A stretch of DNA of 32,484 nt from a virus: the IMG/VR virus record IMGVR_UViG_3300037847_003038, positions 1 to 32,484 of that record; one strand, given 5' to 3'. The position numbers and the translations under genes were made by a program. The notes beneath the pieces are model-generated. The model saw only the letters and a program-made list of their open reading frames with translations, had not been told where the DNA came from and did not search any database. This document shows positions 3,242 through 32,484 of the stretch, in pieces (the stretch's first letter is position 1; each line of letters opens with the position of its first letter).

Positions 3242-3278
3242 TATGACTGAAATTAATGGTAGCTAAAACGTATGAGTT

Positions 3279-3407
3279 ATGAAGAAAACGAAAGCTGAAA
3301 TAAATAAAAAAATTAAATACATACGAACGCCCGAGTGGCAAAATATTTATCAATATCACAGAACGCAAAAACGTGCGCTGTATGTTGACGATAAAGGTAA
3401 AAGATGA
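3279..3407 (+). CDS. Hypothetical small basic protein (42 aa)
   Basis: ATG at 3279, TGA at 3405-3407 overlapping the next ATG at 3404. Lysine-rich N-terminus, then a Tyr/Gln-rich middle (PEWQNIYQYHRTQKRALY). No family recognised. The translational coupling of three consecutive micro-genes here (3279, 3404, 3510) argues that they are real. Confidence 0.55.
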   Translation: MKKTKAEINKKIKYIRTPEWQNIYQYHRTQKRALYVDDKGKR

Positions 3408-3529
3408 AAAATAAAAAGTACACGCAACTGCAAAGAATTGAACGGCTAGAGGCAGCTGTTGCAAAGGTGTATTTTATGCTGCAAAGTATAATGCAAAAAG
3501 AACAAAAAGATGAACGGGATAAAGATTGA
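3404..3529 (+). CDS. Hypothetical small helical protein (41 aa)
   Basis: ATGA overlap with the gene before, 20-nt overlap with the gene after. The sequence is predicted helical with a heptad-like middle (LQRIERLEAAVAKVYFML) flanked by lysine-rich ends. No family recognised. Confidence 0.55.
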   Translation: MKNKKYTQLQRIERLEAAVAKVYFMLQSIMQKEQKDERDKD

Positions 3530-3641
3530 ACAGGTTTTTATTTCAGGCGCTTTGCTTGGCTTTGTTTACAACCGTGAAGATGATTGTGAGGTTGTTATGT
3601 TTTGCTTGTTTATAATTGGTATAAAGATAAGCTGGTGGTAA
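3510..3641 (+). CDS. Small membrane protein (43 aa)
   Basis: Two hydrophobic segments (about residues 9-20 and 28-42) joined by an acidic NREDDCE turn, ending in SWW: a likely two-helix membrane hairpin. I recall similar mini-proteins beside sigma-like genes in flavobacterial phages; no function is known to me. It overlaps the upstream gene by 20 nt and the downstream sigma gene by at least 7 nt. Confidence 0.6.
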   Translation: MNGIKIEQVFISGALLGFVYNREDDCEVVMFCLFIIGIKISWW

Positions 3642-4123
3642 ACGTTTTAAACATAGTTGCTAAACATCATCAAAAGTGGTTGCGTATTGCAAAATCTTTT
3701 GGGCTTAATGAAACGGCCGAAGATTTGGTGCAAGATATGTATTTAAAAATTCACGATTGGAAGGGCAAATATGATAAAACATTAATGTATAATAAAAACG
3801 AGGTTAACCATTATTTTATTTTTTTGGTTTTACGAAATTTATTTTTAGATTTATGTAGGGCCAACAAAAAAAAATCACAATACAGCCAGGCCCAAAAAGA
3901 AAAAACAACAACACAGTTTGGCGTTGAATATAACGAACAACTGGCACTGGTAAAAAACGAAATAGCCAGCTGGCATTTATACGACAGAAAAATATACGAA
4001 CTGCTCTACCAAGAGGGTTACAGTATGCTTGAATTATCCAAGCAAACTGGGATAGATTATTATTCAATTTATCGTACAAAAAATAAAATACAAAAACTTT
4101 TAAACCAAAAACTGAAAAGATGA
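3602..4123 (+). CDS. Phage-encoded sigma-70 family (ECF-like) factor
   Basis: 173 aa from a TTG at 3602; an in-frame GTG at 3635 (162 aa) fits the homologous start region better and leaves only a 7-nt overlap. Residues 20-90 look like sigma region 2 (AKHHQKWLRIAKSFG, then AEDLVQDMYLKI at 39-50, and HYFIFLVLRNLFLD at 70-83). Residues 126-168 form a region 4 helix-turn-helix (YSMLELSKQTGIDYYSIYRT). There is no region 3 or 1.1, as in ECF-type factors. It should redirect host RNA polymerase. The best target in this genome is the CGTTATAY motif in front of the four late units. ATGA overlap with the next gene. Confidence 0.75.
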   Translation: MLVYNWYKDKLVVNVLNIVAKHHQKWLRIAKSFGLNETAEDLVQDMYLKIHDWKGKYDKTLMYNKNEVNHYFIFLVLRNLFLDLCRANKKKSQYSQAQKEKTTTQFGVEYNEQLALVKNEIASWHLYDRKIYELLYQEGYSMLELSKQTGIDYYSIYRTKNKIQKLLNQKLKR

Positions 4124-4626
4124 GAATACAAATTGGAACACAACTTAAAAATGAAGTTTGGCAATTCGTAAGCCAAAACAATTTAGGCAAACGCCACAGC
4201 AGCAACGGCACAAAAACAGAACAGTATGTCGGTATGCTAGGCGAGGTTGCAGTAAAAAGATTATTTAAACAGCCAGTAGATTTAACAGCTGAATTTGACG
4301 GCGGCTTTGATTTTGAACATAACGAAATGAAAATAGACGTTAAAACAATGGGCCGTAATGTTAACCCGCAGCCAAGCTATGTGAATAACTTTGTTGCATA
4401 CCAAAAAGATTTTAAATGCGATGCTTACATATTTTGTAGCTTAAATAAAAAAACAAGCGAGTTACATATTTGCGGCTGGGTTACAAAAGATGAATTATTG
4501 GATAAGGCAGAGAAGTTTAAAAAGGGTACTGAACGCACCCGCAGCGATGGCAGTGTTTTAAAACTTAAAGCACCGACATACGAAATAAAGAACAGCGATT
4601 TAAAACCAATAGAAACCTTGTTATGA
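4120..4626 (+). CDS. PD-(D/E)XK-type endonuclease-like protein
   Basis: 168 aa. Residues 36-50 (YVGMLGEVAVKRLFK) resemble the first helix of the fold with E42; GGFDF around D64 and KIDVKT (D73, K75) give the D-x(n)-DxK core. A substrate cannot be named: it could be a Holliday-junction or replication-repair nuclease. It starts within the sigma stop (ATGA), and its stop overlaps the ATG at 4623. Confidence 0.6.
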   Translation: MRIQIGTQLKNEVWQFVSQNNLGKRHSSNGTKTEQYVGMLGEVAVKRLFKQPVDLTAEFDGGFDFEHNEMKIDVKTMGRNVNPQPSYVNNFVAYQKDFKCDAYIFCSLNKKTSELHICGWVTKDELLDKAEKFKKGTERTRSDGSVLKLKAPTYEIKNSDLKPIETLL

Positions 4627-4787: not shown

Positions 4788-4975
4788 ATTGGGCTGAATT
4801 TAGAGCCAGTGTTAATAATGTTTTAAACCGTGAACAATTTGAACTAATTTGTCAACTTCACGCAAAGTATTACAAGCACAGTTATTACAAACCTTGCACC
4901 TGTTCGCCCAAAGTTGTTAAAACGTGGATAGCGCAATTAAACGATATCTATGACAGCAATACAAACAACCAATAA
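4766..4975 (+). CDS. Hypothetical protein with Cys motif (69 aa)
   Basis: Residues 24-52 (FELICQLHAKYYKHSYYKPC, then TCS) carry His/Tyr and three cysteines, possibly a small metal site. The pattern is familiar from flavobacterial phage early operons but has no assigned role. It overlaps both neighbours (22 nt and 26 nt). Confidence 0.6.
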   Translation: MEELDKIDWAEFRASVNNVLNREQFELICQLHAKYYKHSYYKPCTCSPKVVKTWIAQLNDIYDSNTNNQ

Positions 4976-5378
4976 ATTTGAAAAGGCCTTTATACTGTTT
5001 TTAAATACGTTTGACGGCTGGCAGCTGGAATGGGCTGGGGATAAAAATTTATGTTACGATGCAATAGGCATAACACCCAAAGGCAACAAGTGTGTTGTTG
5101 AAATGAAGTTTAGAAAAAAGTATTACGAAAGCAAGCTGTTGGAAAAAAAGAAATACGATGCTTTAATGCAACTGCCAGCTGATGTAGTTAAAATATATTT
5201 TGTTTCTGACCCTAAAGGCAGCTATTGGTTTTGGCTTGATAAGCTGGCTGAAATGCAGATTTTTGACAAGTTTTGCCCACAAACTTCGTATTGGAATGGA
5301 AAAAAAATAAAAAAAGATTGTTATCTTCTCAAGGAAGACCAAGCAAGTATTTGCAAAAAAAACGAAAATTTTTATTAA
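4950..5378 (+). CDS. Putative PD-(D/E)XK nuclease
   Basis: 142 aa. E11 in the first helix, D37 (NLCYDAIG) and VVEMKF (E51, K53) make the D-x(13)-ExK core of restriction-type nucleases, followed by a basic segment. Residues 80-100 (VVKIYFVSDPKGSYWFWLD) form the next strands. The likely activity is cleavage of a specific DNA structure or site. It is the last gene before the non-coding RNA unit; the ncRNA promoter begins six bases after its stop. Confidence 0.6.
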   Translation: MTAIQTTNKFEKAFILFLNTFDGWQLEWAGDKNLCYDAIGITPKGNKCVVEMKFRKKYYESKLLEKKKYDALMQLPADVVKIYFVSDPKGSYWFWLDKLAEMQIFDKFCPQTSYWNGKKIKKDCYLLKEDQASICKKNENFY

Positions 5379-5383
5379 AATAT

Positions 5384-5414
5384 TTTGACAACTAAAAAAT
5401 CGTTCCTATGTTTG
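5384..5414 (+). promoter_or_regulatory. Strong host-type promoter driving the large non-coding RNA
   Basis: TTTG at 5384-5387, 19 bases, then TATGTTTG at 5407-5414: a perfect match to the Bacteroidetes TTTG / TAnnTTTG form, starting six bases after the preceding stop codon. The predicted transcript start is near 5420. Confidence 0.8.
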
Positions 5415-5420
5415 TACCAA

Positions 5421-6131
5421 CAAAACGCCTAAACAGCGTTGAGCTCTTTGACAAATTGGAAAATAAAATTTAGGACAGCAGTAGAGTTGTGGCCAACTTA
5501 AAAAATTGGTTTGTTGTTGAGATACAACAATGCACGACACTGATAGTGGCTGCGGCCCGAGTAACAAAGGATAAGAGGAAAAAAGTAGATACCAACTATA
5601 ATAGGAGCCTTTGAAAGTATGTTACAACAATGCAAATTGTTTAAAGGGTGGAGCAGACGATACGAAAGCAACTAAATGTTTACAGCGCCAGAGGCGCAGT
5701 ATTAAGGTGGCAGCCGCATTAAAAGTTAGCTAGTAGTTGAAGCATACTGTTGGCGGGGTGGATAGACCCCTTAATAAGTTTGATATACAAGTACGTAAAT
5801 GATAAAAGACCGTGGTTGGTTAATATAAGTACGAGGGTTAAAAGGTAGGGTTGAAACCTACTAGCTTGAATAATAGCTTGACTGAAATACGTAGAATTTA
5901 CCTAGAGTTCAAGGCCTAGAAAAACGGACGCCTAACTAAATTTTTCCAATTTTAAAAGTTAAAATATTTAACGTTTGGTAGTTGCAGCAAGGGTTTAGCG
6001 GCCCAGCGCTGCGGGGGTGAGAGCCATAAGACCAAATCGGGGATAACGGGGATGCATACCCAAAGGCCGCAAGCCGCACCCAGTGGACACCATCAGAATT
6101 GAAAACCCTGGCATATTGCTGGGGTTTTTTT
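5421..6131 (+). ncRNA. Large structured non-coding RNA (about 710 nt), class not recognised
   Basis: A gene-free stretch bounded by a perfect promoter and a strong terminator. A long-range helix closes a roughly 500-nt domain: AAATTGGAA (5453-5461) with TTCCAATTT (5944-5952), continued by AAATTT (5466-5471 with 5938-5943) and AGG/CCT. Hairpins inside: TTGTTGT/ACAACAA (5511-5530), AACAAT-GCAA-ATTGTT with a GNRA loop (5626-5641), GCGCC/GGCGC (5685-5697), GGGGT/ACCCC (5755-5770), GTAGG/CCTAC (5845-5861). A 3' domain is closed by TTTGGT/ACCAAA (5974-5979, 6031-6036) around GCAGC/GCTGC. Local GC content is higher than in the flanks. It resembles in size and style the giant ornate phage RNAs (GOLLD, ROOL), but I cannot assign it to either. 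Confidence 0.8.
6102..6131 (+). terminator. Strong Rho-independent terminator of the non-coding RNA
   Basis: AAAACCCTGGCA (6102-6113) pairs with TGCTGGGGTTTT (6117-6128): 12 pairs including two G-U, 3-nt loop, in a run of seven T. Confidence 0.92.
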
Positions 6132-6135
6132 GTTC

Positions 6136-6153
6136 CCTGTTGTCCTAAACTTT
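6136..6153 (+). promoter_or_regulatory. Shared upstream element, copy 1
   Basis: CCTGTTGTCCTAAACTTT recurs at 12152-12168 with one base deleted. In both places exactly 34 nt separate its end from the TTG of the -33 box. It is probably a binding site for a common regulator of the two early promoters. Confidence 0.55.
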
Positions 6154-6186
6154 CTGAAAAAAATCTGAAAAAAGTTATTAAAAAGT

Positions 6187-6234
6187 TTTGATAATTAAAA
6201 TATGTTCGTATCTTTACACTATAATTAAAACGAA
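6187..6234 (+). promoter_or_regulatory. Early host-type promoter and shared leader
   Basis: TTTG (6187-6190), 18 bases, TATCTTTA (6209-6216), then TAATTAAAACGAA (6222-6234). The 13-mer leader is identical to 13071-13083 and sits 5 nt after the -7 element in both promoters. Confidence 0.75.
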
Positions 6235-6241
6235 AAGCAAT

Positions 6242-6478
6242 ATGGCAACTAGAGTAATAACAAAAGCAAACATTTTACAAAGTATGAAAGACGCTGGTGC
6301 TGATTTAACACCCTTTAAAAATTTAAAAAGTTACAAGTGTGTACAGTATGGCGATGAAGAATGGGTTTTAGATAGCGAAGTTTGGGCTTTAATTATGCCA
6401 GGCACTCCGCAGATGCATTCTGAATATAATTACCTAGCTGCTTGGGGTTACATTTATGATAACGAAATTGCAAAATAA
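6242..6478 (+). CDS. Hypothetical early protein (78 aa)
   Basis: I chose the ATG at 6242 (MATRVITKANIL); a start at 6188 would place the first codons on top of the promoter. Tryptophan-rich C-terminal half (WVLDSEVWALIMPG, AAWGYIYDNEIAK). No family recognised. As first gene behind a strong early promoter it is a candidate host-takeover or counter-defence protein, but that is position only. Confidence 0.7.
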   Translation: MATRVITKANILQSMKDAGADLTPFKNLKSYKCVQYGDEEWVLDSEVWALIMPGTPQMHSEYNYLAAWGYIYDNEIAK

Positions 6479-6498
6479 TAACTAAAATTAAAAGTAAT

Positions 6499-6756
6499 AT
6501 GGAACAAGCACGAGTAACAACTAGAAAAACTGACAAGGGAATAATAGTACCTGAAAAAGTTTGGATAACATTTTTAAATAACGGGTTTCAAGAATTTTGG
6601 ATGCCGTTAACTGACTGGGATGGAAACCAATTGTTTTGGATTGACGGCCTACAAACACAAGCTAAAAAAATAGCTGCTCAAAAATTTGATTGTAAATTTG
6701 GGATAGCACCTTGCAGCCAAAAAGAAGTGGGCAACGCTTGTATAGATAATTTTTAA
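6499..6756 (+). CDS. Hypothetical early protein (85 aa)
   Basis: ATG at 6499, preceded by the same A-rich leader type (AAAATTAAAAGTAAT). Residues 20-50 are rich in Trp/Phe (FWMPLTDWDGNQLFWIDG), suggesting a compact beta-rich domain. Three cysteines lie at the C-terminus. No family recognised. Confidence 0.65.
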   Translation: MEQARVTTRKTDKGIIVPEKVWITFLNNGFQEFWMPLTDWDGNQLFWIDGLQTQAKKIAAQKFDCKFGIAPCSQKEVGNACIDNF

Positions 6757-6767
6757 ATAGAAAACGT

Positions 6768-6923
6768 ATGATAAACACTATGCAAACACTGCCAGGCGAA
6801 AAGCCAAAAGACGGACAGTTAAAAGCAAAAGGCAAACAAATATGGCAATACAAAAGGCAGACAGGCCAGTGGCACTTGATGATGTGGAACGAAACTTTTG
6901 AATGCTGGAACACAGCACTATGA
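6768..6923 (+). CDS. Hypothetical small basic protein (51 aa)
   Basis: ATG at 6768 (or 6780), TGA at 6921-6923 overlapping the next ATG at 6920. Basic N-terminal half (GEKPKDGQLKAKGKQ), tryptophan-rich C-terminal half (WQYKR, WHLMMWNETFECW). No family recognised; supported by the stop-start overlap. Confidence 0.55.
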   Translation: MINTMQTLPGEKPKDGQLKAKGKQIWQYKRQTGQWHLMMWNETFECWNTAL

Positions 6924-7231
6924 ATAAAAAGATTGACAATTTAAAAGACCTGGAGTATTACGGCAATATTGAACTACTGGCAACAACTGTTTTAGAAGCG
7001 CTTAAAAAAGCACCAACAGAAAAGCTGGAAGCTATGAGCCGAGCAATAACGCAAATAACGTTTTACGTTAACAACCTACAAACCGACAGGCGAATGTATG
7101 ATAAAGCGATGAGCGAATACAGGGCCGATAAGAATAGGGCTGTAATGCGTGCCAGGGCCGCTGAAAAAAAAGCGGAGGAATTAGAACAACAGTTAAAAAA
7201 TTTTAATATATTTAAACCCTTAAAACAATGA
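6920..7231 (+). CDS. Hypothetical helical protein (103 aa)
   Basis: The ATG at 6920 forms an ATGA with the preceding stop and is preferred over an in-frame ATG at 6902. Residues 55-98 (RMYDKAMSEYRADKNRAVMR and on to EELEQQL) are a highly charged helix, likely coiled coil. No family recognised. Its TGA overlaps the next start at 7228. Confidence 0.65.
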   Translation: MNKKIDNLKDLEYYGNIELLATTVLEALKKAPTEKLEAMSRAITQITFYVNNLQTDRRMYDKAMSEYRADKNRAVMRARAAEKKAEELEQQLKNFNIFKPLKQ

Positions 7232-32033: not shown

Positions 32034-32455
32034 ATAAACTTATTATACATTGCACAGCAACACCCGAGGGCCGAGAGGTAAGCGTTGAAACTATACGTAA
32101 ATGGCACCTCGGCAGAGGCTGGCGTGATATTGGTTATCATTTTGTGATTGGCCTAGACGGCGAAGTACACGAGGGGCGGCCTATTGAACAAACAGGTGCG
32201 CATACGAAAGGACAAAATTACGACAGCATAGGAATAGCGTACGTTGGTGGGGTTGAAGCTAAAAAGGTTAACGGCGAATGGAAAGCGAAAGACACACGCA
32301 CGGACAAGCAGAAAGAAGCACTAGAGGACTTGCTGTGCTATTTAAAAATAAAATACGCAGCAGCTAAAGTTTACGGCCATAGGGATTTCAGTACAAAGGC
32401 CTGTCCGAGTTTTGATGCAAAAACAGAATACGAGTGGATAACAAACCAGTTTTAA
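32021..32455 (+). CDS. N-acetylmuramoyl-L-alanine amidase (endolysin)
   Basis: 144 aa, Amidase_2/T7-lysozyme type. Zinc ligands H10 (LIIHCTAT), H120 (GHRDF) and C128 (KACPSFD); Y39 (GYHFVIG) and K126 match T7 lysozyme Y46 and K128. It cuts the amide between MurNAc and L-Ala in peptidoglycan. No signal peptide, so it needs a holin; the 3TM holin follows two genes later after circularisation. Confidence 0.92.
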   Translation: MRKIDKLIIHCTATPEGREVSVETIRKWHLGRGWRDIGYHFVIGLDGEVHEGRPIEQTGAHTKGQNYDSIGIAYVGGVEAKKVNGEWKAKDTRTDKQKEALEDLLCYLKIKYAAAKVYGHRDFSTKACPSFDAKTEYEWITNQF

Positions 32456-32484
32456 AATGGCCCGCAAAACTTTTATTCCATTTG
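32336..32484 (+). repeat. Right copy of imperfect terminal repeat
   Basis: Aligns with 1-149 (142 of 149 identical, no gaps). All differences are synonymous third-position or Arg-codon changes in the amidase. Confidence 0.95.
32457..32484 (+). CDS. Small basic protein, N-terminal fragment (cut by contig end)
   Basis: ATG at 32457 encodes MARKTFIPF before the window ends; identical in DNA to the start of the 41-aa gene at 122-247. Confidence 0.7.

Follow-up and report, generated by a model that had tools for sequence, protein, structure and literature searches.

A predicted large structured non-coding RNA gene in a variable cargo slot of an aquatic Bacteroidota phage

A gene-free stretch between conserved genes

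The window analysed here is the whole IMG/VR virus record IMGVR_UViG_3300037847_003038 (32,484 nt). Its first 149 nt are repeated in its last 149 nt (1–149 and 32336–32484) with 95% identity, so the window probably spans a nearly complete genome. This overlap falls within an endolysin-like gene; a genome with circular permutation or terminal redundancy, when assembled from a mixed population, would be expected to show it. The record itself is classed as linear. The window terminase shares 71–89% identity with those of the 80 nearest uncultured phages in IMG/VR, and its best identity to those of cultured Bacteroides and Parabacteroides phages is about 40%. The window phage is a virus of aquatic Bacteroidota bacteria. 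All called genes lie on the + strand, as do the promoters, the terminator and the predicted RNA described below, and no tRNA genes were found in the record.

For comparison we used about 215 loci from related uncultured phages. The order of the genes at 4623, 4766, 4950, 6902 and 7262 is kept in these relatives, with a slot between the third and the fourth (5379–6901 in the window). The left border of the slot is a conserved 142-aa gene (4950–5378) with no Pfam or PHROG match, and its right border is a conserved 109-aa gene (6902–7231). The slot itself is variable: among 60 distinct relatives its length ranges from 55 bp to 1.7 kb, and small ORFs fill it. In the window its second cargo is a gene for a 78-aa orphan protein (6242–6478). 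The 863 nt between the end of the 142-aa gene at 5378 and the start of this orphan at 6242 contain no called gene, and 809 nt of them (5379–6187) are free of any + strand ORF of 45 aa. An earlier, sequence-only reading had singled out this region as the longest gene-free stretch of the window, and our analysis agrees.

The gene-free stretch codes for no protein and bears no trace of a coding past. Stops are scattered across all frames, and reassigning any single stop codon opens at most 77 codons. The three-base periodicity of 1.39 is within the shuffled range, whereas coding pieces of the same length from this genome all reach at least 3.2. Stop-to-stop fragments gave no convincing match in PHROGs or Pfam, and tblastx against the relatives was likewise negative. 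A protein-coding reading was rejected on these grounds, and the search for a conserved reading frame, which would have contradicted the sequence-only reading, found none in the window.

The G+C content of the stretch exceeds that of its flanks. A gene-free region located about 2 kb downstream of the gene for the replicative helicase would suit a DNA element, for instance a replication origin or a packaging site, in place of an RNA gene. However, there is no GC-skew turn at the stretch and there are no iterons, just one 12-mer in two copies; the elevated G+C content and the fact that relatives do without the stretch also argue against such an element, which we regard as very improbable.

An inherited slot promoter and a strong terminator

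We identified a promoter with the perfect Bacteroidota consensus, TTTG-N19-TATGTTTG, at 5384–5414 (TTTG at 5384–5387, TATGTTTG at 5407–5414). The sequence-only reading had described it in the same terms, and only 0.005 such sites are expected per shuffled window with both strands counted. In the related phages, the density of TTTG-N19/20-TAnnTTTG is 20–66 times higher in intergenic than in coding DNA, which indicates that this consensus is really used in them; most other spacings of TTTG and TAnnTTTG show little or no intergenic excess. A sigma-factor-like protein is encoded at 3602–4123 (Sigma70_r2 just below the Pfam cut-off; PHROG RNA polymerase sigma factor) and may read some of the phage promoters.

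In 23 of 78 relatives the first 150 nt after the 142-aa gene contain a perfect promoter, and in 12 more they contain a one-mismatch version (35/78), compared with 0 perfect and 2 one-mismatch sites in the shuffle control. The promoter is therefore a feature of the slot and inherited with it, which is the most solid new result of our analysis. The promoter that had been ascribed to the RNA as its own is thus present but not private to it. In relatives, the cargo ORF usually begins 17–38 nt after the slot promoter; the distance to the next ORF is 774 nt in the window versus 240 nt in the next largest case. The promoter is thus an old, inherited element that would transcribe a long non-coding cargo only in this phage. 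Other promoters in related phages, at position 689 of locus L125 and 3616 of locus L225, lie 217–240 nt from the next 45-aa ORF and possibly serve short non-coding RNAs or very small genes.

At the other end of the stretch, an intrinsic terminator spans 6101–6131 and is composed of a 13-pair stem (arms 6101–6113 and 6117–6129), one pair longer than previously given, and a T run. Its predicted stability (−16.3 kcal/mol) corresponds to z = −4.5, with 0 of 200 shuffles as stable. Downstream of it, a promoter-like site one base off the consensus, TTTG-N18-TATCTTTA (6187–6216), is positioned 25 nt before the next protein gene, the usual distance among related phages, and the sequence upstream of this site recurs in them. 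Based on the promoter, the terminator and this separate downstream promoter, the RNA is probably a unit of its own and not a leader. We infer a transcript spanning 5418–6131, which would start a few nt past the −7 box and end at the T run of the terminator.

An inherited promoter is, at the same time, uninformative about its cargo. The stretch could be non-coding or long-decayed DNA that came to lie after the slot promoter; the terminator would then just end read-through, and the structure would be a by-product of composition. Against this, the longest ORF-free run in the slots of the 60 relatives is 181 nt, versus 809 nt in the window. Idle DNA is lost from compact phage genomes, and the stretch has no trace of a coding past and ends exactly at a strong terminator. 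Non-functional cargo appears to us a real alternative, if an improbable one, and two further observations discussed below, the modest stability of the whole molecule and the lack of homologs, would be in line with it. If the stretch has no selected function, it cautions that chance can produce ORF-less gaps between a promoter and a terminator in cargo slots.

Predicted fold of the transcript

The predicted RNA is composed of a body (5436–5974) closed by a long-range helix, P1, and a G+C-rich 3′ domain (5970–6083). P1 pairs 5436–5473 with 5936–5974 and is present in the minimum free energy structure with about 32 pairs and mean pair probabilities of 0.67–0.87. The long-range helix of the sequence-only reading (5453–5471 with 5931–5952) is thus found, and is longer than stated; the complementarity is, however, not unusual, since the best end-to-end match, which itself is not P1, is equalled or surpassed in 29 of 160 shuffles.

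Within P1, three domains are predicted. Domain A (5474–5545) consists of branched hairpins and includes the first copy of the 12-nt repeat TACAACAATGCA at 5523 (z = −1.7). Domain B (5546–5717) is multibranched and carries the second copy at 5623 together with a GCAA tetraloop (5632–5635), which is the GNRA loop noticed earlier; folded as 5543–5720 it has z = −3.3, with 0/200 shuffles as stable. Domain C (5722–5885), also multibranched, has z = −2.6 (1/200 shuffles as stable), and the segment 5440–5965 has z = −3.3; because the domain borders were picked after the fold was seen, the z-scores of the domains are somewhat flattered. For the whole molecule, z is about −2 and 3 of 160 shuffles are at least as stable, and among 22 coding windows from this phage, 3 also reach z ≤ −2. 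The repeat TACAACAATGCA, although present in two copies as claimed, exceeds chance only marginally, as a repeat as long occurs in 23 of 500 shuffles (about 5%).

For the 3′ domain, two alternative folds compete at almost the same energy. The segment 5974–6036, previously proposed as a second domain, can form a plausible three-way junction (−23 kcal/mol) but is no better than its shuffles (z = −1.1), and 5971–6083 has z = +0.9. The strings GGGTG (6015–6019) and CACCC (6077–6081) are both present; CACCC also takes part in a nested pairing (5991–5994 with 6078–6081) with a probability of about 0.6. A pseudoknot between the two strings is possible and not clearly beyond chance.

Most structural elements of the sequence-only reading are present, and its description of the promoter as the RNA's own is revised as given above. 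Its dedicated non-coding unit is well supported by the lack of a coding signal, the promoter, the terminator and the inner domains that beat their shuffles. The ornate look of the predicted fold is suggestive. The better-than-chance folding of domains B and C argues against non-functional cargo, and the whole-molecule z of only about −2 agrees with it; this modest value, together with the single sequence available, weakens the case for a non-coding RNA.

Searches for relatives and interpretation

Comparison with Rfam covariance models, as suggested in the sequence-only reading, returned no match for the stretch to either an ordinary or a giant RNA in scans at two thresholds that included GOLLD and ROOL. 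Used alone against the genome, the GOLLD model gave no match at E ≤ 10. The ROOL model alone likewise gave none at E ≤ 10, in a scan in which the control genomes gave none either. These scans revealed no similarity to a known CRISPR, tRNA or other Rfam RNA. A group I or group II intron was rejected as well, as there was no Rfam match and the stretch lies between intact genes.

We identified no homolog by BLAST in phages or plasmids, by exact and gapped patterns in viral contigs, by nhmmer, in 94 phage records searched whole or in two draws of about 395 Bacteroidota genomes; this result covers phage, plasmid, viral-contig and Bacteroidota genome collections without metagenome contigs, from which very near records may be absent. 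Single-sequence covariance models, which are weak by construction, also found none, either for domains B and C over 1.28 Mb of related loci or for domain B over 295 genomes, and neither did a second, more distant set of terminase-centred loci. The candidates that emerged were chance matches. A 27-nt match in the phage collection came with no further DNA similarity to any of its records, and matches at E of about 1e-4 in Bacteroidota genomes were to coding DNA, A+T-rich DNA or a look-alike terminator. The doubled 12-nt motif at a spacing of about 100 nt gave 37 matches, none with further similarity and most in open frames. The neighbouring 78-aa gene, being an orphan, offered no route to homologs. 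With no homolog found, there is no covariation evidence and function cannot be deduced by kinship. The same absence, in the roughly 215 related loci and elsewhere searched, is what non-functional cargo would predict.

No second copy of the stretch exists in the window genome, and a diversity-generating or retron-like arrangement was rejected on this ground. Its complementarity to other parts of the phage is not significant. This last result bears on a further alternative, that of a regulatory or anti-defence RNA in which a shorter active part, such as domain B or the 3′ domain, would act as a decoy or antisense against host defence or host RNA and the length and fold would be incidental. A slot of fast-changing small cargo resembles what is often seen at accessory and counter-defence loci, and the slot genes are orphans. 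On the other hand, the lack of significant complementarity to other phage parts and of CRISPR, tRNA or other Rfam likeness does not favour this alternative, and 500 nt of multibranched folding exceeds the needs of a decoy. We consider it unlikely.

Few large structured phage RNAs are known. GOLLD and ROOL are phage RNAs of 660–830 nt that form RNA-only cages, and GOLLD is often found near tRNAs (PMC12286853). The cage is a 14-mer for GOLLD and an octamer for ROOL. In phage ICP1, an RNA of about 800 nt and of top abundance is produced from an ORF-less gap of about 1 kb, with no tRNAs (PMC7567579). The window stretch shows the general features of large phage non-coding RNAs, namely several hundred non-coding nt, a promoter and a terminator. 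Its predicted RNA resembles GOLLD (Rfam RF02032) in size, phage setting, multibranched fold and separate 5′ and 3′ regions, but differs in having its body 5′ and a small 3′ domain, in the absence of tRNAs from the record and in the lack of a model match. With ROOL (Rfam RF03087) it shares size, phage setting and a link between its 5′ and 3′ parts through long-range pairing; in contrast, it has no tRNA island and no match to the ROOL model at the threshold given above. The tRNA neighbourhood of GOLLD and ROOL, which is usual and not obligatory, is thus absent from the window. As both Rfam model tests were negative, we do not assign the window RNA to either family. The ICP1 RNA is similar in occupying an ORF-less gap of about 1 kb in one phage, without tRNAs and without an assigned RNA class; however, host and phage are unrelated, and the ICP1 RNA was seen by RNA-seq whereas the window RNA is predicted only.

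Based on this, we favour, with a probability of roughly 0.6, a genuine, large and orphan structured non-coding RNA gene in the slot; a genuine non-coding RNA gene of any kind, with a regulator or decoy included, is quite probable. In the preferred account, the gene would be accessory cargo behind the 142-aa gene, where the promoter transcribes whatever fills the slot, usually small protein genes. The first cargo in this phage would yield an RNA of about 710 nt ending at the intrinsic terminator, and the second promoter would then serve the next protein gene. Most likely, the RNA would fold as a closed multibranched body, with P1 around domains A–C, plus the G+C-rich 3′ domain, and would work as RNA in trans. 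Like GOLLD and ROOL, it might build up during infection in the form of a stable structural particle or scaffold. We prefer this mechanism because of the length and the closed, multibranched shape, and because phage RNAs of the same size provide a precedent; taken alone, it is an analogy that we hold tentatively. More doubtful is a new giant ornate class of phage RNA with no kinship to GOLLD or ROOL, placed in a protein-cargo slot of aquatic Bacteroidota phages and forming an RNA-only particle.

If the preferred account is true, a non-coding RNA in the cargo slot of a small-protein promoter, in a phage of about 32 kb without tRNAs, would suggest that RNAs of this kind are exchangeable accessory genes, and the window phage would be a small system in which removal of the RNA is a clean experiment. 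From the 60 distinct slots, small accessory genes of aquatic Bacteroidota phages can also be catalogued readily.

Between its helicase and sigma-like genes, the window has another long intergenic stretch (3242–3601, 360 nt). In some relatives, a 435-nt A+T-rich ORF-free stretch is located upstream of the same gene cluster (1724–2158 in locus L132 and 1433–1867 in locus L220). These regions are possibly an origin or a control region.
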